In this document: positions 46,505-63,282 of the stretch, one piece after another
Position numbering within the stretch: the stretch's first letter is position 1
Layout of the letters: the number at the start of each line of letters is the position of its first letter
NCBI GenBank assembly: GCA_016125275.1
Contig: WGMB01000004.1
Span: forward strand, 310,001-374,000
Reading direction: 5' to 3'
DNA from: Acidobacteriota bacterium
GTDB lineage: Bacteria > Acidobacteriota > Terriglobia > Bryobacterales > UBA6623
DNA: 64,000 nucleotides
Made by a program: the position numbers and the translations under genes
The notes under the pieces: model-generated
Seen by the model: the letters and a program-made list of their open reading frames with translations, nothing else
Told to the model about the DNA's origin: nothing
Databases searched by the model: none

Positions 46505-47686
46505 ATGTCGACTGTCTCGCTGAGCTCCACGCCTCTCTGCTGGTGCGGGTCCGCCTGTTCGAAGCCGTTTTCGGACGACTATCGCCAGTGCCTGGACTGC
46601 GGCAGCCTGTTCCTGGCCGCGCCGCACGCCGACGACTATTTTCGAGTCTCCAACGACGATACGGGCTTCTATAGCTCGGCCTATTGGCTCGACTATCTGC
46701 CGTCGGCCCATGGGCAGCCGGACGTCGTCGCCCGGGCCCGGGCGGACCTGCCCGAGCGCTGCCTGTACTGGCTATCGACGGTTCTGCGCTTCCGCCAACC
46801 TCCGGGCAAGATCCTCGAGCTCGGCTGCGGCCCGGCGGCGTTCACTGGCTTGCTGGCGGAAGCAGGATTCGAAGCGCAAGGGGTGGAGATGAGCCCGGCG
46901 ATCGTTGACTGGGCGCGCAAGACTTGGAACGTGGACGTCTTCCGCGGCCCCTTGGAGCAGCTGAGTCTGCCTCCGGGGAGCTACGCTGGGATCGCGGCGT
47001 TCGACGTGCTGGAGCACCTGCCGCGGCCACTGCAGACCCTGCGGTGTGTGGCGGATCTGCTGGAGCCGGGCGGCTGGGCACTGTTCCAGACGCCCTGCTT
47101 CCGTACGCCCGACCAAACGCACGAAGCCCTCGTCGAGCGCTCGGACCGCTTCTTGGAACAGATGAAGCCGGAGGAGCACGTCTACCTCTACACCGAGCAG
47201 GCGGTGGAGAGGCTGCTGGCCGAGGCCGGCCTGCCCTGGGTGCGGTTCTTGCCGGCGCTGTACGACTACGATATGTTCGTGATCGCTGCTAGGGAGCCAT
47301 TGACCGAGATCGACCGCGCCGAATCGAGAGCGGCGCTGCTCGGCTCCCGTTCGCAGCGAACGGCGCTTGCCTTGCTGGACCTGAACGACGCTAAGCAGGA
47401 CTCGGAGAGGTACTGGCGCCTGAAAGGCGAAGAACGAGCCCTCTCGCTCGAAAGGGAGCTGCGCGAGTATCGCTTCGGCATCCCGCGAACGTCCGAGAGC
47501 TTCGGCCGGGCTGAGGCCGAGATCCGGCGGCTAGAGTCCGAAAGGCGTCGCACCGCCGCGGAGTTGGTGCGGGCCATGGAGGACAACGAACGGCTCCAAC
47601 TCGAGCTCTGTCGGCTTCGCCTCGAGCAGATCGAGACCCAGGGCCGCCTTCCAAGCGAAACGGCGGCGCCGGCGGGGGGCTCCTGA
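46505..47686 (+). CDS. SAM-dependent methyltransferase with N-terminal zinc-type motif
   Basis: Protein of 393 residues. The N-terminus has a zinc-ribbon-like set of cysteines (CWCG, later QCLDCG), common in sugar C-methyltransferases. The Rossmann core has motif I KILELGCGPAAFTGLLAEAG, the acidic GVEMS strand end, and DVLEHLPRPLQTLRCVADLL. A C-terminal coiled-coil (about 310-385) is unusual. It overlaps the following GT2 gene by 1 nt (TGATG). A role in methylating a surface glycan is inferred from neighbours. Confidence 0.85.
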   Translation: MSTVSLSSTPLCWCGSACSKPFSDDYRQCLDCGSLFLAAPHADDYFRVSNDDTGFYSSAYWLDYLPSAHGQPDVVARARADLPERCLYWLSTVLRFRQPPGKILELGCGPAAFTGLLAEAGFEAQGVEMSPAIVDWARKTWNVDVFRGPLEQLSLPPGSYAGIAAFDVLEHLPRPLQTLRCVADLLEPGGWALFQTPCFRTPDQTHEALVERSDRFLEQMKPEEHVYLYTEQAVERLLAEAGLPWVRFLPALYDYDMFVIAAREPLTEIDRAESRAALLGSRSQRTALALLDLNDAKQDSERYWRLKGEERALSLERELREYRFGIPRTSESFGRAEAEIRRLESERRRTAAELVRAMEDNERLQLELCRLRLEQIETQGRLPSETAAPAGGS

Positions 47687-48840
47687 TGCGATTCAGCATC
47701 GTGACGCCTTCCCTCAACCAGGCGCAGTACCTTGGCCGAACGATCGAGAGCATTGTCGAGCAGGCCGGGGACTTCGAGGTTGAGCACATCGTCCGTGACG
47801 GAGGGTCCACGGATGGTTCGGTGGATGTTCTGCGCGAGTGGGAGCGACGGCTGGCCGAGCGGCCGCCCGCCGGCAACCGCGGCGTGCGGTTCTCCTGGCG
47901 TAGCGAGAAGGACGGCGGGCAGTCGGCCGCCATCAACGCCGGTCTGCGTTGCGTCTCCGGCGACGTCGTAGCCTACCTCAATTCCGACGACGTGTACTGT
48001 CCCGGAGCCTTCGCGGCCGTCGCAGCAGTCTTGCAGGAGAACCCCCAAGCGGACTTCGTCTATGGCGACGGGCGCGTGGTGGACGAGCGGGAGCAGCTGT
48101 TGTGGACTTGGTTGTCGCGGCCCTTCGACCTTGATATGCTCACGCGCCATCACACAGCTTGGAACGAGGCTTCGAACTATATCATGCAGCCGGCCACGTT
48201 CTGGCGTCGCCGAGTCATGGACCGCATCGGTCTGTTCGAGGAGTCCTTCCACTACTCGATGGATCTGGAGTATTGGGTACGCGCCGGCGCGAATGGTTTG
48301 CGGCTGGAGCACTTGCCCGTCGAGTTGGCGATGTTCCGAATGATCTCCGGAACGAAAACGACCTCGAGCCCGAACGCCTTCTGGCCGGACAACCTGGAGA
48401 TCTTTCGGCGCTACGGCAAGGCCGGCCGGCTGGCGCCGGCATGCGGCTATTATTTTTACAATCTGGCGCTGGAGCATCAGTGGAATCTGCACGTCGCCGC
48501 CGAGCGCTATCAAGGCGTCGCGGCGAAGTGGCGGACCTTGGCGGAGTCGGAACGGGCCACCGCGCTGGACAGCGCGGCCCTCGGCGAGGGACTCGGCCGG
48601 GTGATCTGCGCCATCGACGCCGTCCGCCGCAACGAGACCGGCCTTGCCCGGGAGCTGTTCGGGCAAGCACTGGAGAAGCACCCAGCAGTTCGCGGCCACG
48701 CCTTGGCTTGGAATTATCGCGCCCGGCGCGCCTTGGGCGACGGCGGTCGCCGCTTGGCTGAGGGATTTCTTGCTCGGGCGGTGGCTCGGTATCGGCGCCT
48801 GCGCATCGACTATCGTTACGCGCAGAGTGAGCCTCGATGA
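47686..48840 (+). CDS. GT2-type glycosyltransferase
   Basis: Inverting GT-A glycosyltransferase of 384 residues. Motifs: SIVTPSLNQAQYLGRTIESI, EHIVRDGGSTDGS, the metal-binding DXD-type YLNSDDVYCPGA and the later MDLEYWVRAG. The C-terminal third (about 250-384) is helical and Ala/Arg-rich. It overlaps both neighbours (1 nt with the methyltransferase, 4 nt with the next GT2), indicating one operon. Confidence 0.93.
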   Translation: MRFSIVTPSLNQAQYLGRTIESIVEQAGDFEVEHIVRDGGSTDGSVDVLREWERRLAERPPAGNRGVRFSWRSEKDGGQSAAINAGLRCVSGDVVAYLNSDDVYCPGAFAAVAAVLQENPQADFVYGDGRVVDEREQLLWTWLSRPFDLDMLTRHHTAWNEASNYIMQPATFWRRRVMDRIGLFEESFHYSMDLEYWVRAGANGLRLEHLPVELAMFRMISGTKTTSSPNAFWPDNLEIFRRYGKAGRLAPACGYYFYNLALEHQWNLHVAAERYQGVAAKWRTLAESERATALDSAALGEGLGRVICAIDAVRRNETGLARELFGQALEKHPAVRGHALAWNYRARRALGDGGRRLAEGFLARAVARYRRLRIDYRYAQSEPR

Positions 48841-49847
48841 GGTCCGGCGAAGCGACGCCGATCGTCTCGGTCGTCATCCCGACCCACCGCCGGGAGAAGC
48901 TGTTGCAGCGATCGCTGCGCAGCGTCTTGCAGCAAGACTACCCAGAGCTCGAGATTTGGGTCATCGACCAGGATCCCACGAAGCGCCTGATCCAATCATG
49001 CGCCGAGGAGCTGGCGGACGCGCGCGTACGGTACGTCAACCTGCCCAATGCAGGCACGAGCCGCGCGAAAAACTTCGGCATCGAGCGCGCCCAGGGCGAG
49101 TTTCTCCTATTTCTCGACGACGACGCCCATGCGCTGACCCCGTCTTGGGTTCGCTCCTATGTTCGGGTCTTTCAGCAGATCCCCGAGGCAGGCTTGGTGA
49201 CGGGCAAGATCTTGGGTGAGTGGCCGGGCGAGGTTCCGAGCTGGTTCCCTGGGGAGTACGGCTACCTGTTGGGGCAGTACGACCTAGGTGACGAAGACTG
49301 CCCAATGCCGGAGGGCCACTTGCCGCTCGGAGGCAACATGGGCGGGCGCACTGACCTTATTCGGGAGCTCGGTGGGTTCGACACGCGCTTTGGCTACAAC
49401 AACTTCAGCAAGCGATCCGTCGGCGGCGAAGACAGCTTGCTGGGCCAAGCCGCCTGCAAGGCCGGCTGGAGGATGTACTAATGCGCTGGAGCCGTGGCCG
49501 GCCATTTCGTGGCGGAGGGCCGCTTGAGCCGGCGGTTCTTCGTTCGCCGGAACTACCGAGAAGGCGTCTCGACCATCCAGCGGCTGGCTGCGCTCGACCA
49601 GCTTGGCGACCGCAAAGCCGTCGCCAAGTATCACCTGCGGGAACTGCTGATGGCCTTCGCGCGCTATCTGCTCCCGCACTACGCGCACATCTACGACCGT
49701 CCGACCGAGCAGATCCGAATGTTGGCGGCCCGCCGCATGGCCTACAGTGCCGGCATCCTGCGAGGACTCTGGGACGGCGAGCCGCTGGAAAAGCAAACGG
49801 CGGCGCCCGTGGCGCCGCCGTCTTCTCCGAGCGGTTCGTTTTCCTAG
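48837..49847 (+). pseudogene. GT2-type glycosyltransferase interrupted by an in-frame stop
   Basis: Residues 1-214 form a GT2 core (VVIPTHRREKLLQRSLRSVL, IDQDPT, FLLFLDDDAHAL) that stops with TAA at 49479-49481. The same frame remains open to 49847 and continues the family's C-terminal pattern (AVAGHFVAEGRLSRRFFVRR, then YREGVSTIQRLA). The ten codons around the stop read Y-stop-C-A-G-A-V-A-G-H; reading one base ahead after TAC TA gives Y-A-L-E, which matches the family motif better. So a nonsense mutation, or a pair of compensating indels or sequencing errors, is likely. A downstream restart (ATG in MAGHF is not strong) cannot be excluded. Intact product would be about 336 residues. Confidence 0.75.
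49797..49821. terminator. GC-rich hairpin between the GT2 pseudogene and the NHL gene
   Basis: Perfect 11-bp stem ACGGCGGCGCC/GGCGCCGCCGT with a CGT loop at the end of the GT2 frame, followed by CTTCTCC. It can serve as a bidirectional terminator for the two convergent genes; the T-run is weak. Confidence 0.6.
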
Positions 49848-49859
49848 CGGACCGCGTCC

Positions 49860-52800
49860 TTACCGAACCACGATCGTGACGGGCGGGCTGGTCAGTCCGG
49901 CCGTCCGCACTTGGATCGGCACCGAGTCGCCGGGCAGCACGCCTGGCGGAACGGTGAAGTTGATCTGGTACAGGCCGGCGAATCGCGGGGCTAGGCCGCT
50001 ATACAGCACCTGAGCTGCGATGCCGTCGACCGTCACCTCCACGGGGTTCACCGTCACGCTCAGCGGCGAGTCGGGCGCGACCTGACCTTCGGGGCTGGGC
50101 GGGTCGACCAGCCCAAGGCCCGTGCAGAAGGCCGTCAGCACGCTGCCCACCCGGGCCGGCGCGCCCGAGCTGTTGAGCTGGAAGGTGAGCCCATCGACGA
50201 TCGCTCCTTGCCCGTAGCCCTGCTGGTTGATGGTGAAGATGGCCGGCTGCGTCGGCGCGATGGTGAGTCGCTCCTCTACGGAAAGCGCATTGCCGCGCTT
50301 GACCAGCAACTGCACCTGACGGTTCAGCGGCAGGTTGAACGGGATTTGGGCGTTGATCTGACCGTTGTTGGCGAACAGCAACGGCGTCGCCACTCCGGCC
50401 ACATAGACCTCGGTGCCTTCGAGCAGCGTTGGGAGCGGCACGGTGTTGACCACGGACGTCGTGTCCGAGAGCTGGCTGCCGAAGATGGAGATCAGCGCGC
50501 CGGGAGAGACCCGGCTGGCGGATTCGAAGCTGGCGGCGTTCAACACAGCTCCTTCCTCGACGATCGGCAGTGGGCTGGCCTCGGTGATCTCGACGGCGAT
50601 GTCGCGTTGCCGGAAGCTCGAACCGAGCCGGCCGGTCAGCGTCACAGTGGTGTTCTGTGCGGAGTTGCCGCGAGGCTGCCAGTTCGAAGACCACAGGCCG
50701 GGGCTCTCATAGCGCAAGTCCACCTGGCTGTCGCCGTTGGTGAAGTTCGCAATGGCTTGCACGCTGGGAGTCTGCGTGGTCAGGGCCGTACCGCAGTTGT
50801 TGTACATCGTCACTGCCAAGCGGACCGGCTCGCCTAGGCGGGCCTGGATGCGGCCGCCCGAACTCTCGACCTCCATCTCCAAACTATTGCAGCCCGCCTG
50901 CTGGCTCAGCTCGTCTGTGAGTGCGGCCGAGCTCGGCGCGACGATGCCGATCACACGAACGTTCTGAATCGAGCCGTCCTCGAAGTAGAACGACAGCGAC
51001 CCGCGTTGGATGCCCGGGCTGAGGTCGTCGAGCTTGGGGTTGACGATGACTTTCTGCGGTGTGTTGGGCTGGATCACGGCGCCCTCGGGGCCGTGCACGA
51101 ACCATTCCACGCCTTCCTCCGTCAGCGCGCTGCGAGACGAAGAATAGGTCAGCGGCGTGCTGCCCCGGTTGCCGATGATGAGCTCCTTCGAGCCCGGCGG
51201 AACCCCGGGGGCGCCGACGAAGATCAGCGCGCTCTGGCTGATGCTCGGCGGCGGCGCTGCGCCGGCCGCCAAGACCCTGAGCAGCACCGAAATGGTCTCT
51301 GGCGGGTTGCCGGGAGCGTTCACGTCCACCCGGCCGAAGTAGTCGCCCTCGATCAGGCCTGTCGTGTCGGCCGAGATCTCGAGCACGGAGTAGTCCTGCA
51401 AGGGCTTCTCGACCACGCCCGCCGTGTCGCTGATCCGCAGCCAGCCGGTCCGGCCCGACAGCGTGGTGGCGGAGGCTGTCCAGCTCATCGAGCCCGAGCC
51501 GGCGTTGAAGATCGCGATCTTCTGCGGCAAGGGATCGCCGCCGTTGCGGCCCGAGCGGAAGCTGACGCCCGCTTGGCTCAAGGTCAGGATCGAGGACGGC
51601 GCGGAGATGGTCATGGTCACCGGCGTACCGACGGAGTTGCCTTGGTCGTCCATCACCCGGATCTCGCCTGCGTACGTTCCCACCGCCAACTGGCCTGGGT
51701 TCGCCGTCGCGAGGATCACCTGCGGATTGGCCGCGCTGGCTTGGCCTGACGACGTGTCGATCGTCAGCCAGCCTTGCTCCGAGGTTGCCGTGGCTGTGAA
51801 CGAGAGCCTGCCGGTGCCGGCGTTGCTGACGGTGAGCCGCTTGTTCCGCGACGCTCCGCCCTGAATCAATCCGAAGGTGAGGTTCCCCGGATCAGTCGCC
51901 ACCTTCGCCGGCTCGCCGGTTTCCACGATCAGCTTCACGTCGACGCCACGCTGCGGCTCATTCGCCTCGGGGACGTAGAGGTTCAGCCGCGCTGTGTACT
52001 CGCCTGGGCCCAGGTCCTCGGCATTGCCGCGGACGTTGAGGTCGACGGGCAAGCCGCCGTCGGTGGGGCTGACCTGCAGCCAGCTTGCCGAGGTCGAGGC
52101 CTGATAGCTGAGTCCCACTACGTCGCCGATGATCTCGACCTGCTTGGCCGGAGAAGCCTTTCCGGCGCGGGTGCGGAGCTCGATCGGCCCCGAGGTATCG
52201 AAAGACGTGGTGAATCCCGGAGGCGACGCCAGAATCGCACGCACGCGGTTGTTGAGCTGTTCGGCGACGAACAAGTTTCCGGCGGCGTCCAATGCCATAC
52301 CGGCAGGGTTTGTGAAAGAGGCGGCCAGCGCCGGACCGCCGTCGCCCGAGGCGCCACGCTCGCCCGAACCGGCTACGCGCGACATCACGCCCTGGGCGGA
52401 AAGCATCCGAATCACGTCCCCGTTGGATTCGGCGATGTAGATATTGTCCCGCGAGTCCACCGCAACTCCCCAGGGGGTCTTGAAGGAGGCTTGCGGACCA
52501 GGACCGCCGTCGCCGTCCGACCCGAACTGGCCGTTGCCTGCGATCGTCTCCAGACCGCCGCTCGGCGTCAGCCGACGCACTCTGCCGTTGAAGTCGTCCG
52601 CGAAGATCAGATTGCGTTTCGAGTCGAAGGCGATCTCGCGCGGAAAATTGAGTTGCGCACGCGTGGCCGGGCCGTCCCCGTTGTAGCCCGCCTGGCCGGT
52701 TCCGGCGACCCAAGTCAACGTGCCGCGGGAGTCGATCTTGACGATGATGTGGTTGGAGCTATCACTGACGTACACATCACCGTTGGTGTCGGCGGCGACG

Positions 52801-54299
52801 TCGGTGGGGAAGTTCAGGGGTGATTGCAGGGCAGGCGATCCGGACTGCGACAAGCCCAGCGAACCGTTGCCCGCGATGGTCGTGATAACCCCCTTTGGAT
52901 CGATCTTACGAATCCGGAAGTTCTCCTTATCCGCGATCAGGATGGAGTTGTCCGGCAGCACGTGCAGGCCGATCGGCTCATTGAGGGCGGCGCGAACGGC
53001 CGGGCCCCCGTCGCCTGAGAAGGTTTTCTCTCCGGTGCCCGCGATCCGCGTGATCTGGTAGCCGTTGGCCGGGTCCGCGCGCAGGACGACGTTGGCGCGG
53101 GAGTCGGCGATCAGGAGCCGATTCTGGTTGTCGACCGCGACAGAGAGCGGAAAGCGCAGATCGGCGGCGTAGCTAGGCACGCCGTCGGGCGGAATGACCG
53201 TGCCGCCGGTGCCTGCTACCGTCTGGATGCGGCCATCGGTGCGAATCGTGCGCACACGGCGTTCATCGGCGTAGACGATCTGACCGGAGGAGTTGACGGC
53301 GACCGCCTCGGGGTAGGGAACCCCCGTCTGCAGGGCGCTGCGCCCATCCGGGGTCTGCTCGGGCAAGCCCGTGCCGGCGATGGTCTTGATGCGTCCCAGT
53401 TGATCAATGGCGCGGATACGGTTGGTTTGGTTGTCGGCGAAGACCAGACCGCCCCGGGTGTCGTTGGCGATCTGCTGCGGCCAGTAGAGCAGCGCCTGGG
53501 AGGCCGGAACGTCGTCGATGAAACCGGGCTTGTCCGGCGAACCGGCAAACGTAGTGATGATGCCCTTGGTGTCGACCTTGCGGATGATGTTAAAGAACCG
53601 GTCGGAGATGTAGAGGTTGCCGGCGTTGTCGAACGCCACGCCCTCGGGCCAGCGCATCTGCGCGCGTGTGGCCGGCACGTTCTCTCCGGAGAACGGGTGA
53701 TCGCCTGGATTGGGCATGCCCGCGACGGTGGTGATGATGCCGTTGAGATCGATCTTGCGGACAATATTATTGGCGCTGTCCGCGAAAAAGACCTCGCCGA
53801 CGGCGTTGGTCGTGATGGCGGTCGGGCGCTCGATCAAGGCGTTGACGGCGCGTCCGCCGTCGCCGCTATATCCGCCCTGTCCGCGGCCTGCGATCGTGGT
53901 GATGACGCCCTGCGGATCGACCTTGCGGACGCGATGGGCGCCGTACTCGGTGATGTAAATGCTGCCGTCGGGTCCTTCGCACACACCCGACGGCGTGTTC
54001 ATGGAGGCGCGCGTGGCGAGGCCGCCATCACCGGAGAAGCCGGGGAAGCCGTTGCCCGCGATGACCTCGCTGCCACGGCCCAACGTAAAGCGATACACCA
54101 CATGCCCGTCGGAGTCGGGAACCAGCAGCCGGCCCTTGGAGTCGAAGGCGAGCTGCTTGGCGTCGAACGGCACCATCGTGGCGGGGGTTCCGTCGGCTGG
54201 CGGGACGGTGTTGCGGCCCGCGATTGTGACGACGACTTGCCCAAAGATCAGACAGGCGCTAAGAAGAACGAGACTCGCCAAACGGCTGAACAAAGGCAT
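49860..54299 (-). CDS. Giant exported NHL-propeller/BACON protein with a TIGR03437-type C-terminus
   Basis: Exported protein of 1479 residues with signal peptide (ending LIFGQV). Residues about 22-710 carry some 12 NHL-type repeats, each with a VITTIAG-like strand and a GYSGDGG loop (for example ITTIAGRGQGGYSGDGG), enough for two six-bladed propellers. Then come three BACON-like domains (SWLQVSPTDGG; GWLTIDTSSGQ; GWLRISDTAGV), a further beta module, and a C-terminal TIGR03437-type domain (about 1250-1479: VLNAASFESASRVSPGALIS; VLYSGLAPRFAGLYQINF). A cell-surface binding role is likely; the ligand is unknown. ATG 54299 begins the signal peptide. Confidence 0.92.
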   Translation of the reverse strand: MPLFSRLASLVLLSACLIFGQVVVTIAGRNTVPPADGTPATMVPFDAKQLAFDSKGRLLVPDSDGHVVYRFTLGRGSEVIAGNGFPGFSGDGGLATRASMNTPSGVCEGPDGSIYITEYGAHRVRKVDPQGVITTIAGRGQGGYSGDGGRAVNALIERPTAITTNAVGEVFFADSANNIVRKIDLNGIITTVAGMPNPGDHPFSGENVPATRAQMRWPEGVAFDNAGNLYISDRFFNIIRKVDTKGIITTFAGSPDKPGFIDDVPASQALLYWPQQIANDTRGGLVFADNQTNRIRAIDQLGRIKTIAGTGLPEQTPDGRSALQTGVPYPEAVAVNSSGQIVYADERRVRTIRTDGRIQTVAGTGGTVIPPDGVPSYAADLRFPLSVAVDNQNRLLIADSRANVVLRADPANGYQITRIAGTGEKTFSGDGGPAVRAALNEPIGLHVLPDNSILIADKENFRIRKIDPKGVITTIAGNGSLGLSQSGSPALQSPLNFPTDVAADTNGDVYVSDSSNHIIVKIDSRGTLTWVAGTGQAGYNGDGPATRAQLNFPREIAFDSKRNLIFADDFNGRVRRLTPSGGLETIAGNGQFGSDGDGGPGPQASFKTPWGVAVDSRDNIYIAESNGDVIRMLSAQGVMSRVAGSGERGASGDGGPALAASFTNPAGMALDAAGNLFVAEQLNNRVRAILASPPGFTTSFDTSGPIELRTRAGKASPAKQVEIIGDVVGLSYQASTSASWLQVSPTDGGLPVDLNVRGNAEDLGPGEYTARLNLYVPEANEPQRGVDVKLIVETGEPAKVATDPGNLTFGLIQGGASRNKRLTVSNAGTGRLSFTATATSEQGWLTIDTSSGQASAANPQVILATANPGQLAVGTYAGEIRVMDDQGNSVGTPVTMTISAPSSILTLSQAGVSFRSGRNGGDPLPQKIAIFNAGSGSMSWTASATTLSGRTGWLRISDTAGVVEKPLQDYSVLEISADTTGLIEGDYFGRVDVNAPGNPPETISVLLRVLAAGAAPPPSISQSALIFVGAPGVPPGSKELIIGNRGSTPLTYSSSRSALTEEGVEWFVHGPEGAVIQPNTPQKVIVNPKLDDLSPGIQRGSLSFYFEDGSIQNVRVIGIVAPSSAALTDELSQQAGCNSLEMEVESSGGRIQARLGEPVRLAVTMYNNCGTALTTQTPSVQAIANFTNGDSQVDLRYESPGLWSSNWQPRGNSAQNTTVTLTGRLGSSFRQRDIAVEITEASPLPIVEEGAVLNAASFESASRVSPGALISIFGSQLSDTTSVVNTVPLPTLLEGTEVYVAGVATPLLFANNGQINAQIPFNLPLNRQVQLLVKRGNALSVEERLTIAPTQPAIFTINQQGYGQGAIVDGLTFQLNSSGAPARVGSVLTAFCTGLGLVDPPSPEGQVAPDSPLSVTVNPVEVTVDGIAAQVLYSGLAPRFAGLYQINFTVPPGVLPGDSVPIQVRTAGLTSPPVTIVVR

Positions 54300-54353: not shown

Positions 54354-54377
54354 CGGCCCCGCCGGGATGCGGGGCCG
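54354..54377 (-). terminator. Hairpin terminator of the outer-membrane protein gene
   Basis: Stem CGGCCCCGC/GCGGGGCCG with a 6-nt loop, followed on the minus strand by CTTTGTG. It lies 27 nt after the stop of the beta-barrel gene and before the NHL gene's start. Confidence 0.55.
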
Positions 54378-54403: not shown

Positions 54404-55072
54404 TTAGCGCAACTGGATGAAAATGCCGCCGACGAACTTGCTGAAGACCTTCGTCTGCGGCGTGCCGATCTCGGTGCCGGCGAAGTCTTGCAGCGGCGTG
54501 TAGGCCTTGGCCTCCACGCGGAATCCGAACCTCTGGTTGACGTAGTAGCGCAGACCGCCGCCGAAGTTGGCGGCCAGCGAGGTGTCCGCAGGCGCCTTGT
54601 CGGTGAAGGTGCCCGTGCCGCCGGCCGTACCGACGTTGATCTGCACGTCGCGCGCGGGGGACCGGATCACGCCGACGCCGGCCACCAAGTAGGGCACGAA
54701 CTTCGATTCGGCCACGGGAATGCGGATGTGCACGCCGCCGTGGACATCCGTCAGCGGCACTTCATAGATGCTCGAGCCGGAACGGCCGGTGTCCTGAATC
54801 GTGAAGTCGAACTGACGGCTCAGGCCGGGAAAGTAGGTGTACTCGAAGTACGGCAGGATCACCCGGGTGGCCGCGAACGTGACGTTGGCGCCGCCCATCA
54901 CGCGGAACTTGTCGATGCCGTAGCTGGCGCCGACCATTCCGCCGATCTCGTAGCTGCCCTGACGGACGACGGCGGCGCTTTGGGCCGAGGCCCCAACCGC
55001 GAACAAAGCGGTCAGCAGCGCCAACTTGGCGACGCCGCTGCGGCGGAAGGAGGAGACGAGGGTAGAACGCAT
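54404..55072 (-). CDS. Outer-membrane beta-barrel-like protein
   Basis: Protein of 222 residues with an N-terminal signal sequence ending GASAQS. The mature part alternates hydrophobic and polar residues in strands with aromatic girdles (ANVTFAATRVILPYFEYTYF, GGGLRYYVNQRFGFRVEAKAY) and ends with IFIQLR, the final-strand pattern recognised by the BAM complex. It fits an 8-stranded OmpA/OmpX-type barrel. ATG 55072 is chosen: an A-rich but Shine-Dalgarno-poor leader precedes it, and the frame extends upstream without a signal peptide. It lies 78 bp from the caspase-repeat gene upstream, which may be in the same transcript. Confidence 0.82.
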   Translation of the reverse strand: MRSTLVSSFRRSGVAKLALLTALFAVGASAQSAAVVRQGSYEIGGMVGASYGIDKFRVMGGANVTFAATRVILPYFEYTYFPGLSRQFDFTIQDTGRSGSSIYEVPLTDVHGGVHIRIPVAESKFVPYLVAGVGVIRSPARDVQINVGTAGGTGTFTDKAPADTSLAANFGGGLRYYVNQRFGFRVEAKAYTPLQDFAGTEIGTPQTKVFSKFVGGIFIQLR

Positions 55073-55150: not shown

Positions 55151-58100
55151 CTAGCGAATGCCCGGGCCGACCAGCAGCTCTTTGGCCGCCGGAGTATCTT
55201 CTATGACACAGCGGAAACCGACCAGGTTGCCGCCCTTGGGAAAAGACGTGCGGAACGAGATCCGCAGGTGCTCGTTGGGGTCGCTGTACCAGGACCCGCC
55301 GCGAACCACATGCTCCTGCCCGCTCTGTGGTCCCTTCGGGTCGGCTGTGGGGGAACGGGAGAAGTATGTCGGGTCGAAGAAATCGCCCGTCCACTCCCAT
55401 ACGTTGCCGGCCATGTCGAACAGGCCGAAGCCGTTGGGATCGTAGCTCTTCACCGGCGCCGTGTAGCGAGCGCGGTCATTGCCCTCTTCGCCCTGGAAGT
55501 TGGCCTTGTCGCGGCTGTTCTCATCGTTCAGCGGATAGATCGCGTCCTCTTGGCCGCCTCGGGCCGCGTATTCCCACTCCGCTTCGGTCGGCAGTCGGCC
55601 GCCGGCCCATTGGCAGTAGGCCTGTGCTTCTTCCGCCGAAGGTCCGGTGATCGGGTGGTTGGTCACGCGCCGTTTCTTGTCCCACAGCGGGGCCGAGGGC
55701 ATCTGCAAGCGCCCGCCGGACGCGTCCACGAAGCGTTGGTAGGCGGCGATGTCCACCTCGGTGGCCCCGAGCCAAAAGCCCTTGGAGATCGTCACGCGAT
55801 GTTGCGGCTTTTCCTCGTCCTTACAGCGCGTGTCGCCCGGGGCGCAGCCCATGTTGAACTGGCCCGCGGGGATCCAGACGTACTCCTGCCGATCGCGGCG
55901 GCTCGAGTGCGGAATGCCCACGATGGAGGCGGCGTCGGAAGGAGGCCGCAACTCGTCGAGCTTCCGGCGGGCTTCGCCATTGAACAGGCCCGAGGAGTGC
56001 TTGGCGAGGTAGCCGTCGAAAGCTGCCTCGTTGCCGCCCGACAGGGCGGCCTGCCACGCCTCGATATCGGCCACGCGCTCACGGGCGACGGAGGCGTACA
56101 AGCCCTCGGGAAAGTCGGCCAAGTACTTCTCGTAAGCCGAACGGTCCCGGCTGGCGCCCAGGGCGTCCCAGGCGCCACGGTCGAGATCGCTGAGCATGCG
56201 TTGGGCTTCGCCGGAAGGACGGCTGCCCGGAAAGCGCGTCAGAAAGTCCCGAAACGCTTGCGGGTCGGCTCCGCCTCGAATTCCTTCGAACGCCCGTTGC
56301 GCCAGCCCGTCGCGAGCCAACTCCACGAAGGCGCCGCCGGGGAAATCGCCCAGGTACTTCTCGAAGCTGTACTCGTTGCCGAGCTCGCCCGTCGCTTGCT
56401 GGCTGGCCCGGAAGAACGCCTCGTCGGCGTGCGGCCCGCCCGGAAAGGCTTTGTGATGTTCGGCATAGCAGCGAGCTTCGCCGCAGGAGACGGCCTGCCC
56501 CCAGGCCTCCATCTCGCGAACGGCCGGAGAGTCGCCGCGGTCGCCGATGCGGCCGTAGGCTTCGTTGATGAACAGCCCATTGGGATGGCCGGCGATGTAG
56601 CCCTGCACGGCGGCCTTGTCGCCTTGGGAGGCCTTGGCCCAGGCGGAGATGTCTTCGATGCGGCGCTGGGCGTCGGCGGCGAAGTCGCCGTCCGGGAAGA
56701 CGCTCAGGTAGGTCTGATAGTCGGCCGCGCTGCGGCTGTCCCGCGCGGCCGACCAAGCCTGCCGGTCCAGATCGCTGAGCATTCGCTGGGCGTCGCCGGC
56801 CAGTCTCGTGTTCGGGAACCGCGCCAGAAAGTCCTTGTAGGCCTTGGGATCGCTACCGCCGGCAATGAGCTCGTACGCTTTGCGCGCGATGCCTTCGCGG
56901 GCGAGCTCGATGAAGCTGCCGTTGGGGAAGCGCCGGAGGTATTCGTCGAAGTTGTAGCTCTTCGATTCGGCCGCCGAAGCCTTCTCCGTCGCCCGGAAGA
57001 ACGCCTCGTCCGCATGCGCGCCGCCCGGAAACTTCTCGAAGTGGCTCACATAGCAGCGCGCCTCCCCGCAGGTGACGGCTTGCGACCAGGCTTCGAACTC
57101 GACTTCGGCGGCGGACCGCTCGGTCGGCTGGGCCCCCTTCAGGCGGTAGGCGTCATTGATGAACAGTCCGTTGGGGTGGCCGGCGATGTAGCCTTCGAGC
57201 GCAGGACCGTTGCCCCCGGCGGAGGCTTTCTCCCAGGCGGAGATGTCTTCGAGCCGGCTCTGGGCGTCCGAGGCGAAGTCTCCCTCGGGAAACTCGGCCC
57301 GGTACTTCTCGTAGTCGGCGGCGTTGCGGCTGTCGCGAACCCTCGACCAAGCCTGGCGGTCCAGATCGCTGAGCGCGCGCTGCGCCTCGCCGGAGAACCG
57401 GCTGTTGGCGAAGCGGCCCAAAAAGTCTCTGTACGAGGCGGCCGTGTTGGCCTTCTGCGCTTCGCTCCAGGCTTCCAGGTCCATCAGGCTCTGCCATTTC
57501 AGCCGAGCCAGCTCGGCGTTGCGGCTGTTGGGGTAGCGTTGGATGTGGTTTGCGAAGTCGATGGCCCGGTTGGAGTTCTCGATCATCGCCCAATGGGCCT
57601 CGGCGGCGTTGGAGCCGTTGGGGAACTTCTCCAGGTAGACTTCCGGCGAGAACTCCGCCTTGAGGGCTGAGACGTTCAGAGCCGTCACCGGCTCTGAGCC
57701 GAACTTGACGTCGACCACGGAAGCCTGGGGCATGTCTCGGACCAGCTCGCTCACCAAGTAGAACGCTTCGTCCTGATGCGGGCAGCCGGGGAAGCTGCGG
57801 AAGTGCCCGATGAGCTTGGCGACGTCCTTGCTGCTGTTGGCGAGGGCCCAATCGGCGTCGTCGCCCAGGGTGGGCTCGGCTACTCGAGAGAGAATCAGCT
57901 CTTCGGCGCGGTAGCCGCCGATCTGGACGAACGGCCGCTGCTCACGATCGTCGCCATACTCGCTCTTGACCAAGGCGGGCACCGCTTCCTGTACGTAGCG
58001 CACCAAGCTTTGCAGCGTGACTTCGCCGCGTTCGTTGCGAGCCTTGCCGGCTAGGCCGTCCACCAAAGCGGTGGAGAAGCTGCCGCGGGCCTTGCCGGTG

Positions 58101-58858
58101 GCGCGGTCCATGACTTCCCAGGCCCGGTAGCCGACGGCGGTGGCGTAGAGGGTGACGAAGGCTTCGACTCCCTCGTTGGCCTTGGCGAACGAGAAGCCCG
58201 TTTGGGCGGCGGTCATCTGATTGCCGTCGATCCCGTCCACCGAACGGCCGGCGCGCGGGTCGTTGCGGCAAGCGTCGAGCAGCAGCACGACTTGCTTGGC
58301 GTTCATGCCCCGGATCAGGCCCTTGAGGCTGTCGAGGCTGACGGCCGTCTCCTCCAGAAAGTCGACGTCGTCGATGATCGAGGCGTCGCCGGGAATCAGG
58401 AAAGCGCGCCCTTCGCGCTCGATGCCGTGGCCCGCGAAGGCGAACAACAGCAAGCCGTCGGCCGGAATCTCGGCTTTGATCCGGCGCAGATCACGCAGAA
58501 TGTTGGTGCGGCCGGGCTGCATGAACGACTCCTGCCCGGAGGTCAGCATCAGTACGTGGTCGCTAGGGAAGCCGGCGTACTCGACGAGCGCGTCGCGCAG
58601 CGCGAAAGCGTCATTCTCGGCGCCGGGAACGGGCGAGATCTGCGGATTCTCGTAGCTCGATACACCTACGATCAGCGCCCACCGCTTGGAGGCGTCCGGC
58701 CAGGCGTTCACGTTCGAGTCGAACACCACCTGGATGTCGCGTGCCGTCTGCGCCCCGCCGACAGCCGCGCCAACCCCCAGCGCCAATACGGCCACGGCGC
58801 ACCGGACGAAAACGGACAGGCGGCGGCGGGCGGCAAGGGTGAGCATGGGTTGACTCAT
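55151..58858 (-). CDS. Exported caspase-like protease with tandem helical repeats and a C-terminal FGE-like domain
   Basis: Protein of 1235 residues, numbering from ATG 58858 (an ATG at 58846 is possible). A signal peptide (ending VGGAQT, about 37) is followed by a peptidase C14 (metacaspase-like) domain at about 55-330: SKRWALIVGVSSYENP, catalytic His144 in FAFAGHG and Cys197 in VLLLDACRND. A repeat region (about 370-970) contains two almost complete copies of a 195-198-residue unit and a partial third, each with SDLDRQAWS, DISAWxKAS and CGEARC segments, likely TPR/Sel1-like helices. Residues about 990-1225 form an FGE-sulfatase/SUMF1-type domain (EYVWIPAGQFNMGC; GGRLPTEAEWEYAARGG; FDMAGNVWEWTGDF; VVRGGSW) but the catalytic Cys pair of true FGE enzymes is absent. 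Expected in the periplasm or on the surface; may activate a downstream response by proteolysis. Whether it self-processes is unknown. Confidence 0.9.
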   Translation of the reverse strand: MSQPMLTLAARRRLSVFVRCAVAVLALGVGAAVGGAQTARDIQVVFDSNVNAWPDASKRWALIVGVSSYENPQISPVPGAENDAFALRDALVEYAGFPSDHVLMLTSGQESFMQPGRTNILRDLRRIKAEIPADGLLLFAFAGHGIEREGRAFLIPGDASIIDDVDFLEETAVSLDSLKGLIRGMNAKQVVLLLDACRNDPRAGRSVDGIDGNQMTAAQTGFSFAKANEGVEAFVTLYATAVGYRAWEVMDRATGKARGSFSTALVDGLAGKARNERGEVTLQSLVRYVQEAVPALVKSEYGDDREQRPFVQIGGYRAEELILSRVAEPTLGDDADWALANSSKDVAKLIGHFRSFPGCPHQDEAFYLVSELVRDMPQASVVDVKFGSEPVTALNVSALKAEFSPEVYLEKFPNGSNAAEAHWAMIENSNRAIDFANHIQRYPNSRNAELARLKWQSLMDLEAWSEAQKANTAASYRDFLGRFANSRFSGEAQRALSDLDRQAWSRVRDSRNAADYEKYRAEFPEGDFASDAQSRLEDISAWEKASAGGNGPALEGYIAGHPNGLFINDAYRLKGAQPTERSAAEVEFEAWSQAVTCGEARCYVSHFEKFPGGAHADEAFFRATEKASAAESKSYNFDEYLRRFPNGSFIELAREGIARKAYELIAGGSDPKAYKDFLARFPNTRLAGDAQRMLSDLDRQAWSAARDSRSAADYQTYLSVFPDGDFAADAQRRIEDISAWAKASQGDKAAVQGYIAGHPNGLFINEAYGRIGDRGDSPAVREMEAWGQAVSCGEARCYAEHHKAFPGGPHADEAFFRASQQATGELGNEYSFEKYLGDFPGGAFVELARDGLAQRAFEGIRGGADPQAFRDFLTRFPGSRPSGEAQRMLSDLDRGAWDALGASRDRSAYEKYLADFPEGLYASVARERVADIEAWQAALSGGNEAAFDGYLAKHSSGLFNGEARRKLDELRPPSDAASIVGIPHSSRRDRQEYVWIPAGQFNMGCAPGDTRCKDEEKPQHRVTISKGFWLGATEVDIAAYQRFVDASGGRLQMPSAPLWDKKRRVTNHPITGPSAEEAQAYCQWAGGRLPTEAEWEYAARGGQEDAIYPLNDENSRDKANFQGEEGNDRARYTAPVKSYDPNGFGLFDMAGNVWEWTGDFFDPTYFSRSPTADPKGPQSGQEHVVRGGSWYSDPNEHLRISFRTSFPKGGNLVGFRCVIEDTPAAKELLVGPGIR
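55955..56191 (-). repeat. Partial third copy of the internal repeat
   Basis: Residues about 890-968 of the caspase-type protein (from SDLDRGAWDAL to NGEARRKL) match the first 79 residues of the unit, more diverged than the other copies. Confidence 0.75.
56192..56776 (-). repeat. Second copy of the ~195-residue internal repeat
   Basis: Codons 695-889 of the caspase-type protein. It parallels the first copy along its length, including SDLDRQAWS at the start, DISAWAKASQ, VSCGEARCY and FPGGPHADEAFFRA. The length difference of three codons to the first copy lies in the middle. Confidence 0.88.
56777..57370 (-). repeat. First copy of the ~198-residue internal repeat
   Basis: Codons 497-694 of the caspase-type protein, with SDLDRQAWSRV, DISAWEKASAG, VTCGEARCY and FPGGAHADEAFFRAT in the same order as copy 2. 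A shorter related stretch (AASYRDFLGRF...) precedes it, so the duplication may be older and larger. Confidence 0.88.
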
Positions 58859-59173: not shown

Positions 59174-61900
59174 GTGCATCTGCGCCTACCTACAGTCGTC
59201 GTGATTTGCGCCCTGTCCCTGACGCCGAGCGTCGCCGTCCGGGCGGCCGGGCCGGGGGACGCTGAGTTTTTCGAGACGCGTATTCGGCCGGTGCTGGCAG
59301 ATAACTGCTACGCCTGCCATACGACCTCGAAGATGGGCGGTCTACAGTTGACGTCCAAGGAAAGGGCCGTCCGTGGAGGCGCCTCGGGGCCGGCGATCCG
59401 GCCCGGCAACTCCAAGGGCAGCCTGCTGATCCAGGTTGTCGCGCAGACGCACGATCGCTTGAAGATGCCTCCGTCGGGCAAGCTCAGCGACCAGCAGATT
59501 CAGGACCTGCGGGCATGGGTGGACGCCGGCGCCGTCTGGCCCGAGACCGACGACGAGGCGCTGCTGGCGCCCGACGTCAAGGCGACCGAATACGTCATCT
59601 CTCCGCAACAGCGCGGCTTCTGGTCCTATCAGCCCGTGGACCGGCCGGCGCCGCCCGCCGTACGCAACGCCGCCTGGGCGCGAACGGGAGTGGACCGCTT
59701 CGTGCTGGCGCGCTTGGAAGAAGCCGGCGTGGAGCCCAACGAACGCGCCGGCAAGCGCGAGCTCATCCGCCGCGCCACCCTGGATTTGGTCGGTCTGCCG
59801 CCGACGCCGCAAGAGGTAGCCGACTTTCTCGCCGACGACTCGCCGGAAGCCTTCGCCCGCGTGGTGGACCGCTTGCTGGCCTCGCCGCACTACGGCGAGC
59901 GCTGGGGACGCTACTGGCTCGACCTGGCCCGCTACGCCGACGGCAAGCTGGGCACGGCGGTCGACGACCCATACGCGAACGCGTTCCGCTACCGCGACTG
60001 GGTGATCGAAGCGCTCAACGACGATCTGCCATACGACCAGTTCGTGCGGGCGCAGCTCGCCGCCGACCTGCTGCCCGAGCCGGATCGCTCCAAGCACTTG
60101 GCTGCGCTGGGCTTCTTGGCGCTGTACCCGGGAGGGGACGATCGGGTGGACGTCACTACCAAGACGTTCCTCGGCCTCACGGTCGGCTGTGCACAGTGTC
60201 ACAACCACAAGTACGATCCCATCCCGACCAAGGACTTTTATTCGCTACAGGGCATCTTCAGCAGCAGCGAGGTCCACGAGTATCCTCTGGCGCCAGAGGA
60301 AGAGGTGCAGGCCTGGAAGGACGCCAAGGCGGCCGTGGATCACCAGAAGGCTGCGATCAACAAGTTCATCGAGGACCAGAGCGCGTCGCTGCGCAAGATC
60401 TTGTTCACTCAGACCGCCGAGTACATGATGGCGACGCGGTCGGTGATCCAAGGCAAGGCCGAGCCGGCGCAGGCCGCCCAGGCGGCCGGTCTCGACGAAG
60501 AGATCCTCGGTCGCTGGGTCCGCTATCTGCGGGACACTCAGATCGAGCATCCCTTCCTGGCCGACTGGTTCGCCGTCAACGAACGCGGCGGTTCGGAGGA
60601 GGCAGTTCTAGCCGCCGCCGAGGCCTTCGAGCGGACCGTCCTGGCCGTGGACAAGGAAAAGGAAGAGATCGAGGACATCAACTACGTGCGGCTGGGCGGC
60701 GCCAAGGGTGTGGCGGATGAGAAGACCAGGCAGTACACGAACCTCGAGTTCTTGGACTTGAAGAAGTGGTACTTGTGGCGGGACTTGGCCTTCAACCCGT
60801 ATTCGCCCGAAGGCTTCAAGTTCGACGGCGGCGTGTTCTACTTCGGGACCAAGAAGGGCTTCGAGGTAGACCGTTTCCTCAGCGGGCCTTGGATGGCTCA
60901 CCTGGAGCGGATGCGCGCCGAGCTCAAGGACCTCGAAGACGCCCTGCCTCCGCAGTATCCCTTCATCCACGGGATGCGCGACAAAGACAAGCCCGAGGAC
61001 CTGCGCGTCGCCATTCGCGGCGACAAGGAGAATCTGGGCGAGGTCGCTCCGCGCGCCTTCCTGCATATCCTCTGCGACAGCCAGCCGGAGCCCTACAAGC
61101 AGGGCAGCGGCCGTCTCGAGTTGGCCAATTCCATCGTCAGCCCTAGCAATCCGCTGACGGCGCGGGTGATGGTCAACCGCCTGTGGATGGGGCATTTCGG
61201 CGTGGGGCTGGTGGAGACCCCCAGCAACTACGGCCAGATGGGCGAGCGGCCCACGCATCCCGCGCTGCTGGACTATCTGGCCGGACGATTCGTTGACAGC
61301 GGCTGGTCGATGAAGGCGCTGCACCGCGAGATCATGCTCTCGTCGACCTACCAGTCCTCGATCGAGCACAACGAAAAGAGCGCGGCGGTGGACCCGGAGA
61401 ACAAGCTCTACTGGCGCGCCAACTTGGTGGAGCGTCTCGACGCCGAGGCGCTGCGGGACTCGATGCTGGCCGTTGCGGGGACGCTCGATCCCGCCGTCGG
61501 AGGACCGGCGCAGGACTTCGGCGAAGAGCTGCACCGGCGGGCCGTCTATGGGAACGTGAGCCGGACCCAGCCGGACCGTTCGATGGCCCTGTTGGACTTT
61601 CCGGACCCGAACGCCACCAGTGAGAAGCGGGCTCGCACCCAGGGGCCGATGTTGCGGCTGTTCTTCATGAACAACGAGTTCGTGATCGAGCAGGCGCAGG
61701 CTTTGGCCGAGCGCGTCCGGCAGGAAGCTCCGGACGGCGAGACCGACCGGATTCGGCGGGCCTATGAGCTGCTGTACGCTCGTCCGCCGAGCGAAGCCGA
61801 GATCAAGCTGGGGCTCGAATACCTGGCCGCCGACGAGAGCGCCTGGCCGCGCTACGCTCAGGCGCTGCTGGCTTCGAGCGAGTTCCGGTCCGTGCGGTAG
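59174..61900 (+). CDS. PSD1 (DUF1549/DUF1553) c-type cytochrome-like protein
   Basis: Exported protein of 908 residues typical of Planctomycetota and Acidobacteriota. After a signal peptide, a PSCyt1-type domain carries one haem-binding CYACH site (residues about 45-49) and the KMPPSGKLSDQQIQDLRAW sequence. The DUF1549 block (ANPNERAGKRELIRRATLDL-like NERAGKRELIRRATLDLVGL; HYGERWGRYWLDLARYAD) is followed by a second Cys pair in GCAQCHNHKYDPIPT and the DUF1553 block (NPLTARVMVNRLWMGHFG, LFFMNNEFV). The function is not biochemically proven; the family pairs with DUF1501 proteins and is expected to work in the periplasm. GTG 59174 is chosen, although the ribosome site is weak. DUF1501 follows after 23 bp. 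Confidence 0.9.
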   Translation: MHLRLPTVVVICALSLTPSVAVRAAGPGDAEFFETRIRPVLADNCYACHTTSKMGGLQLTSKERAVRGGASGPAIRPGNSKGSLLIQVVAQTHDRLKMPPSGKLSDQQIQDLRAWVDAGAVWPETDDEALLAPDVKATEYVISPQQRGFWSYQPVDRPAPPAVRNAAWARTGVDRFVLARLEEAGVEPNERAGKRELIRRATLDLVGLPPTPQEVADFLADDSPEAFARVVDRLLASPHYGERWGRYWLDLARYADGKLGTAVDDPYANAFRYRDWVIEALNDDLPYDQFVRAQLAADLLPEPDRSKHLAALGFLALYPGGDDRVDVTTKTFLGLTVGCAQCHNHKYDPIPTKDFYSLQGIFSSSEVHEYPLAPEEEVQAWKDAKAAVDHQKAAINKFIEDQSASLRKILFTQTAEYMMATRSVIQGKAEPAQAAQAAGLDEEILGRWVRYLRDTQIEHPFLADWFAVNERGGSEEAVLAAAEAFERTVLAVDKEKEEIEDINYVRLGGAKGVADEKTRQYTNLEFLDLKKWYLWRDLAFNPYSPEGFKFDGGVFYFGTKKGFEVDRFLSGPWMAHLERMRAELKDLEDALPPQYPFIHGMRDKDKPEDLRVAIRGDKENLGEVAPRAFLHILCDSQPEPYKQGSGRLELANSIVSPSNPLTARVMVNRLWMGHFGVGLVETPSNYGQMGERPTHPALLDYLAGRFVDSGWSMKALHREIMLSSTYQSSIEHNEKSAAVDPENKLYWRANLVERLDAEALRDSMLAVAGTLDPAVGGPAQDFGEELHRRAVYGNVSRTQPDRSMALLDFPDPNATSEKRARTQGPMLRLFFMNNEFVIEQAQALAERVRQEAPDGETDRIRRAYELLYARPPSEAEIKLGLEYLAADESAWPRYAQALLASSEFRSVR

Positions 61901-61923
61901 AGGAAGAACGAGGAGACAACGCG

Positions 61924-63282
61924 ATGACGAGACGCGATGCACTCAAGGTCATGGGAGCCGGCTTCGGCTCCGTCGGTTTGGCGCGGACGCTGGCAGCGAA
62001 CCCGATGACGCAGGCGCCCCACTTCGCGCCGCGCGCCAAGAACGTGATCTTCCTGTTCCTCAACGGAGGCTTGTCGCAGGTTGACACCTTCGACCCTAAG
62101 CCGGAGCTGCAGAAGCGTGACGGCGAGCCGATGCCGGGTCCGAAGATCAAGACGGATCGCGCCGCGGGCAGCCTGATGAAGTCGCCGTTCGCCTTCCGCA
62201 AGCGCGGACAAAGCGGCATCGAGGTTGCTGAGATCTTCGACAAGCTGGGCGACGCGATCGACGACTTCTGCGTGATTCGCTCCTGCTACTCCGACAACGG
62301 CAATCACGGCCCCTCGCTGATGCTGATGAACTGCGGCCATCAGTTGCCGGGCCGGCCGTCGCTGGGCTCTTGGGTGACCTACGGCCTGGGCACGGAGAAC
62401 CAGAACCTGCCCGGCTTCGTGGTGTTGTGTCCGGGCTACCCGGTCATGGGCCCCGTGCTGTGGTCGTCGGCGTTCCTGCCGAACTCCTACCAGGGCGCCT
62501 ACATCCCCAATGGCGAGAGCGATCCGGAGAAACTGCTGCAGAACATCCGCAACCACGCGATGACGGCGGATCAGCAGCAGCGGCAGCTCGAGCTGCTCGA
62601 CAAGCTCGACAGCCACTACCTCGACCGCCTGGGTTATCAGCCGCAGCTCGAAGCCAGCATCCAGTCGATGGAAGTCGCCTACCGGATGCAGACCGAGGCG
62701 CCCGAGGTGTTCGACATTGCCAAGGAGTCGGCGGCGACGCGCGAACGCTACGGCGATACTGATTTCGGCCGAGGCTGCCTGATGTCGCTGCGCCTGGTGG
62801 AGCACGGCGTCCGCATGGTGCAGGTGTACTACGGCAACTTCCAGCCGTGGGACAGCCACGACGACATCCTGGTGCACGGCAAGCTGGCGCGGCAGGTGGA
62901 CGGCCCGATCGCGGCTCTCGTGGCCGACCTCAAGGAGCGCGGCTTGTTCGACGAGACGTTGCTGGTGATCGGCAGCGAGTTCGGACGGACGCCGATGATT
63001 CAGAACAGCGGTCTCGAGAAGATCGGTAAGGGCCGCGACCACAACGTGCCCGGCTACACGACGCTCATGGCCGGCGGCGGAATCAAAGGCGGCATCACCT
63101 ATGGCGCCACCGACGATTTCGGGTTCAAGGCGGTCGAGAACCCCGTCCACCCGCACGACATGCACGCGACCATGCTGCATCTGCTGGGCCTGGATCATAC
63201 CAAGCTGACCTATCGCTATAGCGGACGCGACTTCCGCCTCACCGACGTGGCCGGCAACGTCATCCACGACATCCTGGCCTAA
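61924..63282 (+). CDS. DUF1501 family protein, Tat-exported
   Basis: Alkaline-phosphatase-superfamily-like (sulfatase-fold) protein of 452 residues with a twin-arginine N-terminus (MTRRDALKVMGAGFGSVG). Hallmarks: KNVIFLFLNGGLSQVDTFDPKP, VIGSEFGRTPMIQNS and RDHNVPGYTTLMAGGGIKGG. Partner of the upstream PSD1 protein in most genomes that have them; the pair is thought to process sulfated or otherwise modified glycans, but this is not established. A GAGGAGACAACGCG leader gives a ribosome site. Confidence 0.93.
   Translation: MTRRDALKVMGAGFGSVGLARTLAANPMTQAPHFAPRAKNVIFLFLNGGLSQVDTFDPKPELQKRDGEPMPGPKIKTDRAAGSLMKSPFAFRKRGQSGIEVAEIFDKLGDAIDDFCVIRSCYSDNGNHGPSLMLMNCGHQLPGRPSLGSWVTYGLGTENQNLPGFVVLCPGYPVMGPVLWSSAFLPNSYQGAYIPNGESDPEKLLQNIRNHAMTADQQQRQLELLDKLDSHYLDRLGYQPQLEASIQSMEVAYRMQTEAPEVFDIAKESAATRERYGDTDFGRGCLMSLRLVEHGVRMVQVYYGNFQPWDSHDDILVHGKLARQVDGPIAALVADLKERGLFDETLLVIGSEFGRTPMIQNSGLEKIGKGRDHNVPGYTTLMAGGGIKGGITYGATDDFGFKAVENPVHPHDMHATMLHLLGLDHTKLTYRYSGRDFRLTDVAGNVIHDILA

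Follow-up and report, generated by a model that had tools for sequence, protein, structure and literature searches.

The caspase-repeat-FGE protein encoded in the window (the whole 64,000-nucleotide stretch of Acidobacteriota DNA analyzed here) is shown by separate trees of its domains to be a chimera at the sequence level, with an FGE tail from a module that recurs in its order and a head from another caspase lineage. In the caspase tree, the window head grouped with intact caspases of other lineages (SH-aLRT 100), and a single clade uniting it with 14 module heads was rejected (p-AU 1.26e-48). In the FGE tree, the window tail grouped with those of the 14 module proteins and of three kinase fusions at an SH-aLRT of 91, which is not above 95, and an AU test against grouping it with the FGEs of three order relatives that carry such heads gave only p 0.048. 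Five of 19 dead-caspase FGE proteins (G149, G170, G229, G029, and G136) lay outside the window's FGE clade, although G170 and G229 nonetheless carry the barrel of the module. The caspase of C10, a paralog in the same genome, belongs to another lineage than the window caspase. Judged from these comparisons, what is new is the genomic context, namely the FGE tail and barrel of a recurrent order module. Since G+C content was near equal in the head (0.665), repeats (0.669), and FGE domain (0.655), composition gives no trace of recent transfer. A viral-contig scan found nothing, and plasmid tblastn returned weak caspase matches in 23 records, every one below 60% identity.

Architecture of the caspase-repeat-FGE protein

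The open reading frame (55151-58858, minus strand; 1235 aa) runs from an ATG at 58858 to a stop at 55151. Its first 36 residues (58751..58858) resemble a signal peptide by hydropathy, with a cut after GGA inferred by eye, and residues 16-34 are the sole stretch above the hydropathy threshold (KD 2.18). This single N-terminal hydrophobic segment is in line with the sequence-only reading of an exported protein, and we likewise predict export from its signal-like start. Domain calls on 10 window proteins were made by a Pfam profile scan. As whole-protein queries were swamped by FGE matches, segments of the window protein were searched separately.

Residues 58-310 (57929..58687, minus strand) match Peptidase_C14, the orthocaspase p20 domain (Pfam, 2.2e-19), and the caspase-segment profile retrieved metacaspase and MALT1 structures. 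The dyad alignment placed the catalytic residues at His144 (codon 58427-58429) and Cys197 (codon 58268-58270), both invariant across 10 chosen relatives, with the His motif aligned to the GHG of solved metacaspases. This agrees with the metacaspase-type domain with intact His and Cys described earlier. By p20 profile and His-Cys dyad, the protein classes as an orthocaspase (clan CD, C14) that is apparently catalytically competent; with its dyad intact, it is not a pseudo-orthocaspase. Matches to the head at E<=1e-10 occurred in 51 of 257 genomes of the order, its own included, with close matches (44-47%) in three other genomes among the 257. The closer relatives of the head keep both dyad residues (eight aligned, the others judged by eye), with the exception, also by eye, of one tandem copy in G452 (L280).

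The repeat scaffold of about 600 residues noted from the sequence was borne out. Alpha-helical hairpin repeats in units of ~37-40 aa span residues ~400-975 (55934..57661, minus strand), as indicated by periodicity and by helices in an AF2 model, and the top self-alignment score (0.615 at lag 195) far exceeded the maximum over 500 shuffles (-0.376). Within them lie two blocks in tandem (198 aa, residues 503-700, and 195 aa, residues 701-895; 56174..57352), each of about five hairpins, with 120 identical positions between them; a weak Pfam YfiO match also falls inside the repeats. The AF2 model (mean pLDDT 68.1, pTM 0.41) was usable solely for the repeats and FGE domain, its caspase part being of low confidence.

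The C-terminal FGE/SUMF1-type domain was also recovered, at residues 991-1218 (55205..55888, minus strand), by the Pfam FGE-sulfatase profile (5.5e-58) and FGE structures in the PDB; it matches the FGE of G131 at 63%. Opposite the two Cys of Streptomyces coelicolor FGE that we take to be catalytic, the window protein has a Ser and a gap, and the Cys pair is missing from it and 32 other aligned family rows, as well as from the FGE of C10. Because both catalytic Cys are lacking, the domain is probably a binding module, which argues against reading the "FGE-sulfatase" label in such fusions as an enzyme. Its best NCBIfam match was GldK (127.9 bits against a cut-off of 350), and PorK structures were among its fold matches. 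We also considered the domain as a target protein of a diversity-generating retroelement (DGR) and rejected this, as its variable 3' region has no template-like copy in the genome assembly: a search with the 3' end gave 40 matches, none near-identical except the query, and the best were conserved-motif stretches of paralogs.

The three-part layout, proposed earlier as defining, is shared. C10 (L145:7666-9405; 579 aa) has a signal-like start, a caspase, one repeat, and an FGE domain, as do proteins of G074 and G075 (repeat and signal judged by eye in all three), and caspase-FGE proteins also occur in G239, G600, G319, and G307.

Neighboring genes and the recurrent module

As the sequence-only reading had it, the gene adjoins those for a beta-barrel and a large NHL protein. 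The barrel-like outer-membrane protein (222 aa; 54404..55072, minus strand), a module partner by its homologs' neighborhoods, starts with an ATG at 55072, 78 bp past the caspase stop. Its Pfam OMP_b-brl score (23.3) is under the curated cut-off of 28.7, while the G131 homolog scored above it (34.0) and the G106 homolog gave no match. It matched its 12 nearest homologs at 43-59% and is the sole barrel homolog in its genome; none was found in 17 other genomes of its family. A perfect 8-bp G+C hairpin (54354..54377, minus strand), read from the sequence, separates the barrel and NHL genes and is possibly a transcription break; a terminator scan, whose T-run rule the hairpin does not satisfy, did not call it. 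The next gene (49860..54299, minus strand) encodes a 1479-aa protein, predicted to be exported, with NHL-propeller and BACON domains by Pfam and a C-terminal end matching TIGR03437 (Soli_cterm). As NHL/Soli_cterm-type proteins are numerous in the same genome (46 matches), with matches to the Soli_cterm end mostly elsewhere in it, this neighbor is the weaker, less certain module partner.

To gauge linkage, we inspected fetched stretches around 19 other barrel homologs of the order (E<=1e-20). All except one (18/19) share a stretch with an FGE protein, a Ser/Thr kinase, or an NHL/BACON/Soli_cterm gene, so that conserved neighbors do exist among homologs; in G029 the barrel stands alone. An FGE protein was present in 12 of the 19 stretches (p 9e-12 to 3e-8 under an assumed, unmeasured chance rate of 5-10%), and gene order is conserved in G041 and G106.

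Module-type caspase-FGE proteins, 19 in as many order genomes, have all lost the catalytic Cys, and the His is kept in two; Tyr and Ser, Thr, Pro, or Asn stand in place of the lost residues. These proteins came from searches with the barrel and FGE domain of the window and are not an unbiased survey. Left out of the 19 were the proteins with intact caspases (the window protein, C10, and those of G074, G075, and G239), along with a signal-less G148 protein (L238) whose dyad looks intact by eye, a cut G105 fragment (L230), and a weak, long-branched G247 protein (L211). Because intact caspase-FGE proteins exist outside the 19, dead caspases are the rule in module-type loci, not order-wide. The earlier expectation that homologs keep the dyad thus held for the closer relatives of the head and failed for the 19 module-type proteins.

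In 16 of the 19 caspase-FGE loci, a kinase gene lies directly upstream on the same strand (gap of -19 to 41 bp); for two of these kinases a contig end leaves only the tail visible, and one of the two is a weak match (G170, 3e-5). Three kinase-repeat-FGE fusions (G041, G106, and G107) accompany a barrel; each has one transmembrane segment between kinase and FGE, which places the FGE outside. On this gene arrangement, the usual catalytic partner of the module is a kinase, and the dead caspases show that it can do without proteolysis. The window has an FGE of the module clade and a barrel homolog and in this sense belongs to the order-specific module, but no module kinase was matched among its open reading frames; in the same genome, none of 15 kinase-domain matches covered the module kinase from end to end. 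The "surface-sensing protease system" proposed earlier may therefore describe the window protein at most; with the catalytic Cys lost in 19/19 module-type relatives, it does not apply to the module.

Proposed role and alternative explanations

We give an even chance to the reading of the module as an envelope sensor whose heads can be exchanged and which, in the window, is fitted with an apparently active protease. Outside the inner membrane, the FGE-fold domain would bind a ligand or partner (the barrel itself, the NHL/BACON protein, or a glycan or peptide exposed by them), and the repeat arm would set its spacing or gather it into clusters. For most relatives, the expected receiver of the signal is a one-transmembrane Ser/Thr kinase, and the dead caspase would serve for docking or as a decoy. 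In the window, the head would have been replaced, so that binding might bring an active protease into place or set it free to cut a protein of the envelope, the probable sites lying after Arg or Lys, as with orthocaspases. A broader, rather doubtful version is that the same extracytoplasmic tail and fixed outer-membrane partners serve interchangeable outputs (an in-chain kinase, a dead caspase beside a membrane kinase, or the live caspase of the window), proteolysis in the envelope having replaced phosphorylation inside the cell.

That the window encodes an ordinary exported caspase-FGE protein with accidental neighbors is unlikely. Such fusions are common (33 of 671 sequences in PMC3501461) and the barrel is patchy, missing from the 17 other family genomes, but 12 of 19 shared stretches against an assumed 5-10%, and the gene order kept in G041 and G106, speak for linkage. 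A counter-invader system, in which the FGE fold recognizes phage or competitor molecules and a caspase or kinase head responds, seems quite improbable. In the order, FGE domains do occur with kinase heads and, as judged by eye, with a TIR-like one, and FGS-centered systems, as described in portions of PMC8195603 and PMC7159879, join an FGE-fold domain to exchangeable caspase, kinase, trypsin, or TIR heads, inactive enzymes included. Those systems, however, are described as intracellular and as linked to STAND NTPases, EADs, or DGRs, whereas the window protein is exported by hydropathy. The scan of 10 window proteins showed no STAND, EAD, or DGR component, and the genome assembly contains no further template-like copy of the FGE 3' end. 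With PADLOC, the matches to caspase and kinase domains were generic, and the NHL protein drew a single weak match, to PD-T4-6.

Still less probable is an outer-membrane secretion or assembly station, with the FGE as ring or scaffold (as in GldK/PorK), the barrel as membrane part, Soli_cterm as cargo, and the caspase as processing protease. PorU is a clan CD sortase, which fits such a station, as do the GldK and PorK matches and the cargo-like TIGR03437 domain; however, the GldK score is far below its cut-off, the protease is dead in all 19 module-type relatives, and Soli_cterm-end matches lie mostly elsewhere in the genome. An active formylglycine-generating enzyme maturing exported sulfatases, with the caspase as processing protease, is suggested by the Pfam family name and by speculation in PMC3501461, as far as that text was covered. 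We rejected this activity and regard it as barely credible: the fold is present, but the loss of both catalytic positions already contradicts it.

If the broader version with interchangeable outputs is right, evolution would have swapped intracellular phosphorylation for envelope proteolysis behind one sensor. To our knowledge, the functions of extracytoplasmic bacterial caspases and pseudo-orthocaspases are largely open, and a conserved neighborhood in which both are linked with a membrane kinase and a barrel of the outer membrane offers a concrete list of candidate partners. Closely related tails that carry either a live or a dead head also provide a natural experiment on the purpose of the catalytic dyad.

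Comparison with known systems

C10 and the window protein have in common a signal-like start, an intact caspase, and an FGE without the Cys pair, but C10 has one repeat and no barrel. GldK and PorK, of the type IX secretion system ring, are envelope proteins with an FGE fold. The fold is common to them and the window protein, which scored under the curated GldK cut-off; we know of no caspase or repeats in GldK/PorK.

Like the FGS/lectin-fold conflict systems in the sections of PMC8195603 and PMC7159879 considered, the order combines an FGE fold with exchangeable caspase, kinase, and TIR partners. Unlike those intracellular, NTPase- or DGR-linked systems, the window protein is extracytoplasmic by hydropathy, with a barrel and without a template-like copy. 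Pseudo-orthocaspases are described, in the passages of PMC6426788 used here, mainly from Alphaproteobacteria and Cyanobacteria (90%); "Acidobacteri" is absent from its main text, and these passages contain no pseudo-orthocaspase with an FGE tail behind a kinase gene. The module relatives resemble pseudo-orthocaspases in losing the Cys and mostly the His, from which the window protein differs by its intact dyad. As the sequence-only reading noted, such fusions are known: metacaspase/orthocaspase-FGE-sulfatase proteins are already in print and were interpreted as a link between proteolysis and the formation of formylglycine (PMC3501461, in part). The window protein shares with them a caspase p20 N-terminal to an FGE domain, and the N-terminal helix, maybe a signal peptide, of some metacaspases in the same text is comparable to its signal-like start. 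Unlike them, it lacks the FGE Cys pair, carries a long arm of repeats, and has a barrel as its conserved partner.

Architecture of the window protein and its neighbours

The caspase-repeat-FGE protein of 1235 aa is encoded by a single ORF on the minus strand (window 55151-58858). Pfam assigned residues 58-310 to Peptidase_C14 and residues 991-1218 to FGE-sulfatase, with a weak YfiO match alone between them, and the caspase positions are occupied by His144 and Cys197. Since residues 16-34 form the sole hydrophobic segment over the hydropathy threshold, the protein is likely exported via a signal peptide. Its middle consists of helical hairpins of ~37-40 aa each, with a self-similarity far exceeding that of 500 shuffles, and the array has been enlarged by block duplication (198 and 195 aa, 120 positions identical). 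The predicted model gave paired helices across the repeats, with pLDDT mostly 70-93 and dips to 45, while the top PDB matches of the model were FGE structures.

The next gene on the minus strand, beginning 78 bp downstream, encodes a barrel-like protein of 222 aa. 3' of the barrel gene, past a G+C hairpin, lies a gene for a 1479-aa NHL/BACON protein with a C-terminal TIGR03437 Soli_cterm domain. This type of domain, located at window 49863-50546, is possibly a sorting signal; many of the 46 own-genome matches to the NHL protein are confined to the Soli_cterm end. By Pfam, a methyltransferase gene and two family 2 glycosyltransferase genes adjoin the module on the plus strand (window 46505-49481), and on the other side of the caspase-FGE gene, divergent from it, lie genes for a PSCyt1/PSCyt2/PSD1 protein and then a DUF1501 protein, familiar as a pair in planctomycetes (window 59174-63282).

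Barrel linkage and FGE heads across the order

Barrel homologs were detected at E<=1e-5 in 29 of 257 order genomes, own included, and at E<=1e-20 in 19 besides our own. Of these 19 strong homologs, 18 share their stretch with at least one of an FGE protein, a Ser/Thr kinase and an NHL/BACON/Soli_cterm gene; the FGE protein is present in 12. A kinase is present in three loci whose stretches run up to, or nearly to, a contig edge (G139, G141, G113), and three have an NHL, BACON or Soli_cterm part alone (G169, G136 and G191, the last a 92-aa fragment); none of these partners was found in the G029 stretch. Among the nine weaker genomes, neighbours were searched in five, with a possible partner in G247 only; G039 was covered as ORFs only, and G078, G219 and G221 lay outside the search. 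With seven candidates scored per genome, the barrel profile found no other genome at E<=1e-10 among 396 from the phylum, at least two of them order members besides our own.

Proteins of ~500-550 aa with a caspase-like domain N-terminal to FGE occur in 19 order genomes. At 16 of the 19 loci the gene is preceded by a co-directional kinase gene, with a gap of -19 to 41 bp, counting two tails at contig ends (G141 and G170, the latter a weak match); the gap is 1310 bp in G201, and no upstream kinase gene was found in G167 or G229. The catalytic Cys is kept in none of the 19 and the His in two. Fourteen fall in the FGE clade of the window protein; the linkage and chimera tests are independent of the five outside it (G149, G170, G229, G029, G136). 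The order also has intact caspase-FGE proteins (C10 of our own genome, G074, G075, G239 and, by eye, G148), for which no module-type locus was seen. The C10 paralog (L145:7666-9405), the second such intact protein of our own genome, has a signal-like start and one repeat unit and does not lie in a module locus.

In G041, G106 and G107, kinase and FGE tail are joined in one chain by a ~1,200-residue repeat-bearing linker with one TM, and G041 and G106 have the complete gene order kinase-repeat-FGE, barrel, NHL. Five of six separate module kinases tested have one TM and then a tail; the sixth is truncated at a contig end. In the module kinase L185:9534-14150 and its relatives, a TPR-rich part is followed by one TM, after which come BACON-like repeats and a conserved tail also present in other module kinases. 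Further FGE heads, recognized by eye, are TIR-like (L256:8341-9810, G158) and trypsin-like (L239:1498-3009, G255).

Lineages of the caspase head and FGE tail

Head and tail of the window protein come from different lineages, which makes it a chimera. The FGE domain shares 63% identity with its G131 counterpart, and its tree joins it to the 14 module tails and the three kinase-fused ones (SH-aLRT 91). The caspase reaches at best ~24-26% identity with module heads and the C10 paralog. Matches to the caspase at E<=1e-12 occur in 12 of 396 phylum genomes, own included; among other classes of the phylum, identity is 50-53% in seven genomes and 45-46% in two. Within the order, three genomes have caspases with 44-47% identity. 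The caspase tree places the window caspase with these relatives (support 100). Both trees come from quick searches over 30 chosen rows. Constraining the window caspase to module heads cost 130 log units (p-AU 1.26e-48), while constraining the window FGE to the FGE domains of the three order genomes that carry related caspases cost 14 units, a weak result (p-AU 0.048). Base composition is uniform along the gene, so the joining was not recent. We infer that a new head was placed onto an old tail, because barrel and NHL stay with the tail. In G452, of another class, caspase genes adjoin (L280:1477-3408 and L269), one frame apparently encoding a pair of caspase-like domains of which the second, judged by eye, lacks the dyad.

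Possible function and relation to known systems

In an alignment to S. coelicolor FGE, the window domain has Ser in place of the first catalytic Cys and a gap at the second, and Cys was found at neither position in any of 33 family rows, window included. No second near-identical copy of its 3' region was found in the 7.55-Mb own-genome assembly, where the best matches were a conserved GLFDMAGNVWEW stretch in paralogs. Because the Cys pair is absent, the domain probably does not generate formylglycine, and the lack of a second 3' copy in this assembly speaks against a DGR target. By analogy with C-type-lectin-fold domains, we infer a binding role instead.

In the likeliest scheme, the FGE part would bind an envelope ligand or partner, the repeats would act as spacer or clustering arm, and the head would supply the output. 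The usual catalytic member of the module is the kinase, with the dead caspase of module relatives probably a docking part. No kinase was found in the window locus, and there the output would come from the live caspase.

The sequence-only reading had suggested that the three-part layout may define a surface-sensing protease system. That layout is ordinary, since caspase-FGE fusions (33 of 671 sequences; PMC3501461), pseudo-orthocaspases (PMC6426788) and, in intracellular conflict systems, FGE-fold domains with exchangeable effector partners (PMC8195603, PMC7159879) are already in print. The titles and abstract openings searched, which took in few subscription journals, held no description of a barrel-linked extracytoplasmic module. 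Set beside these published systems, it is the module and its exchange of heads that deserve a second look.
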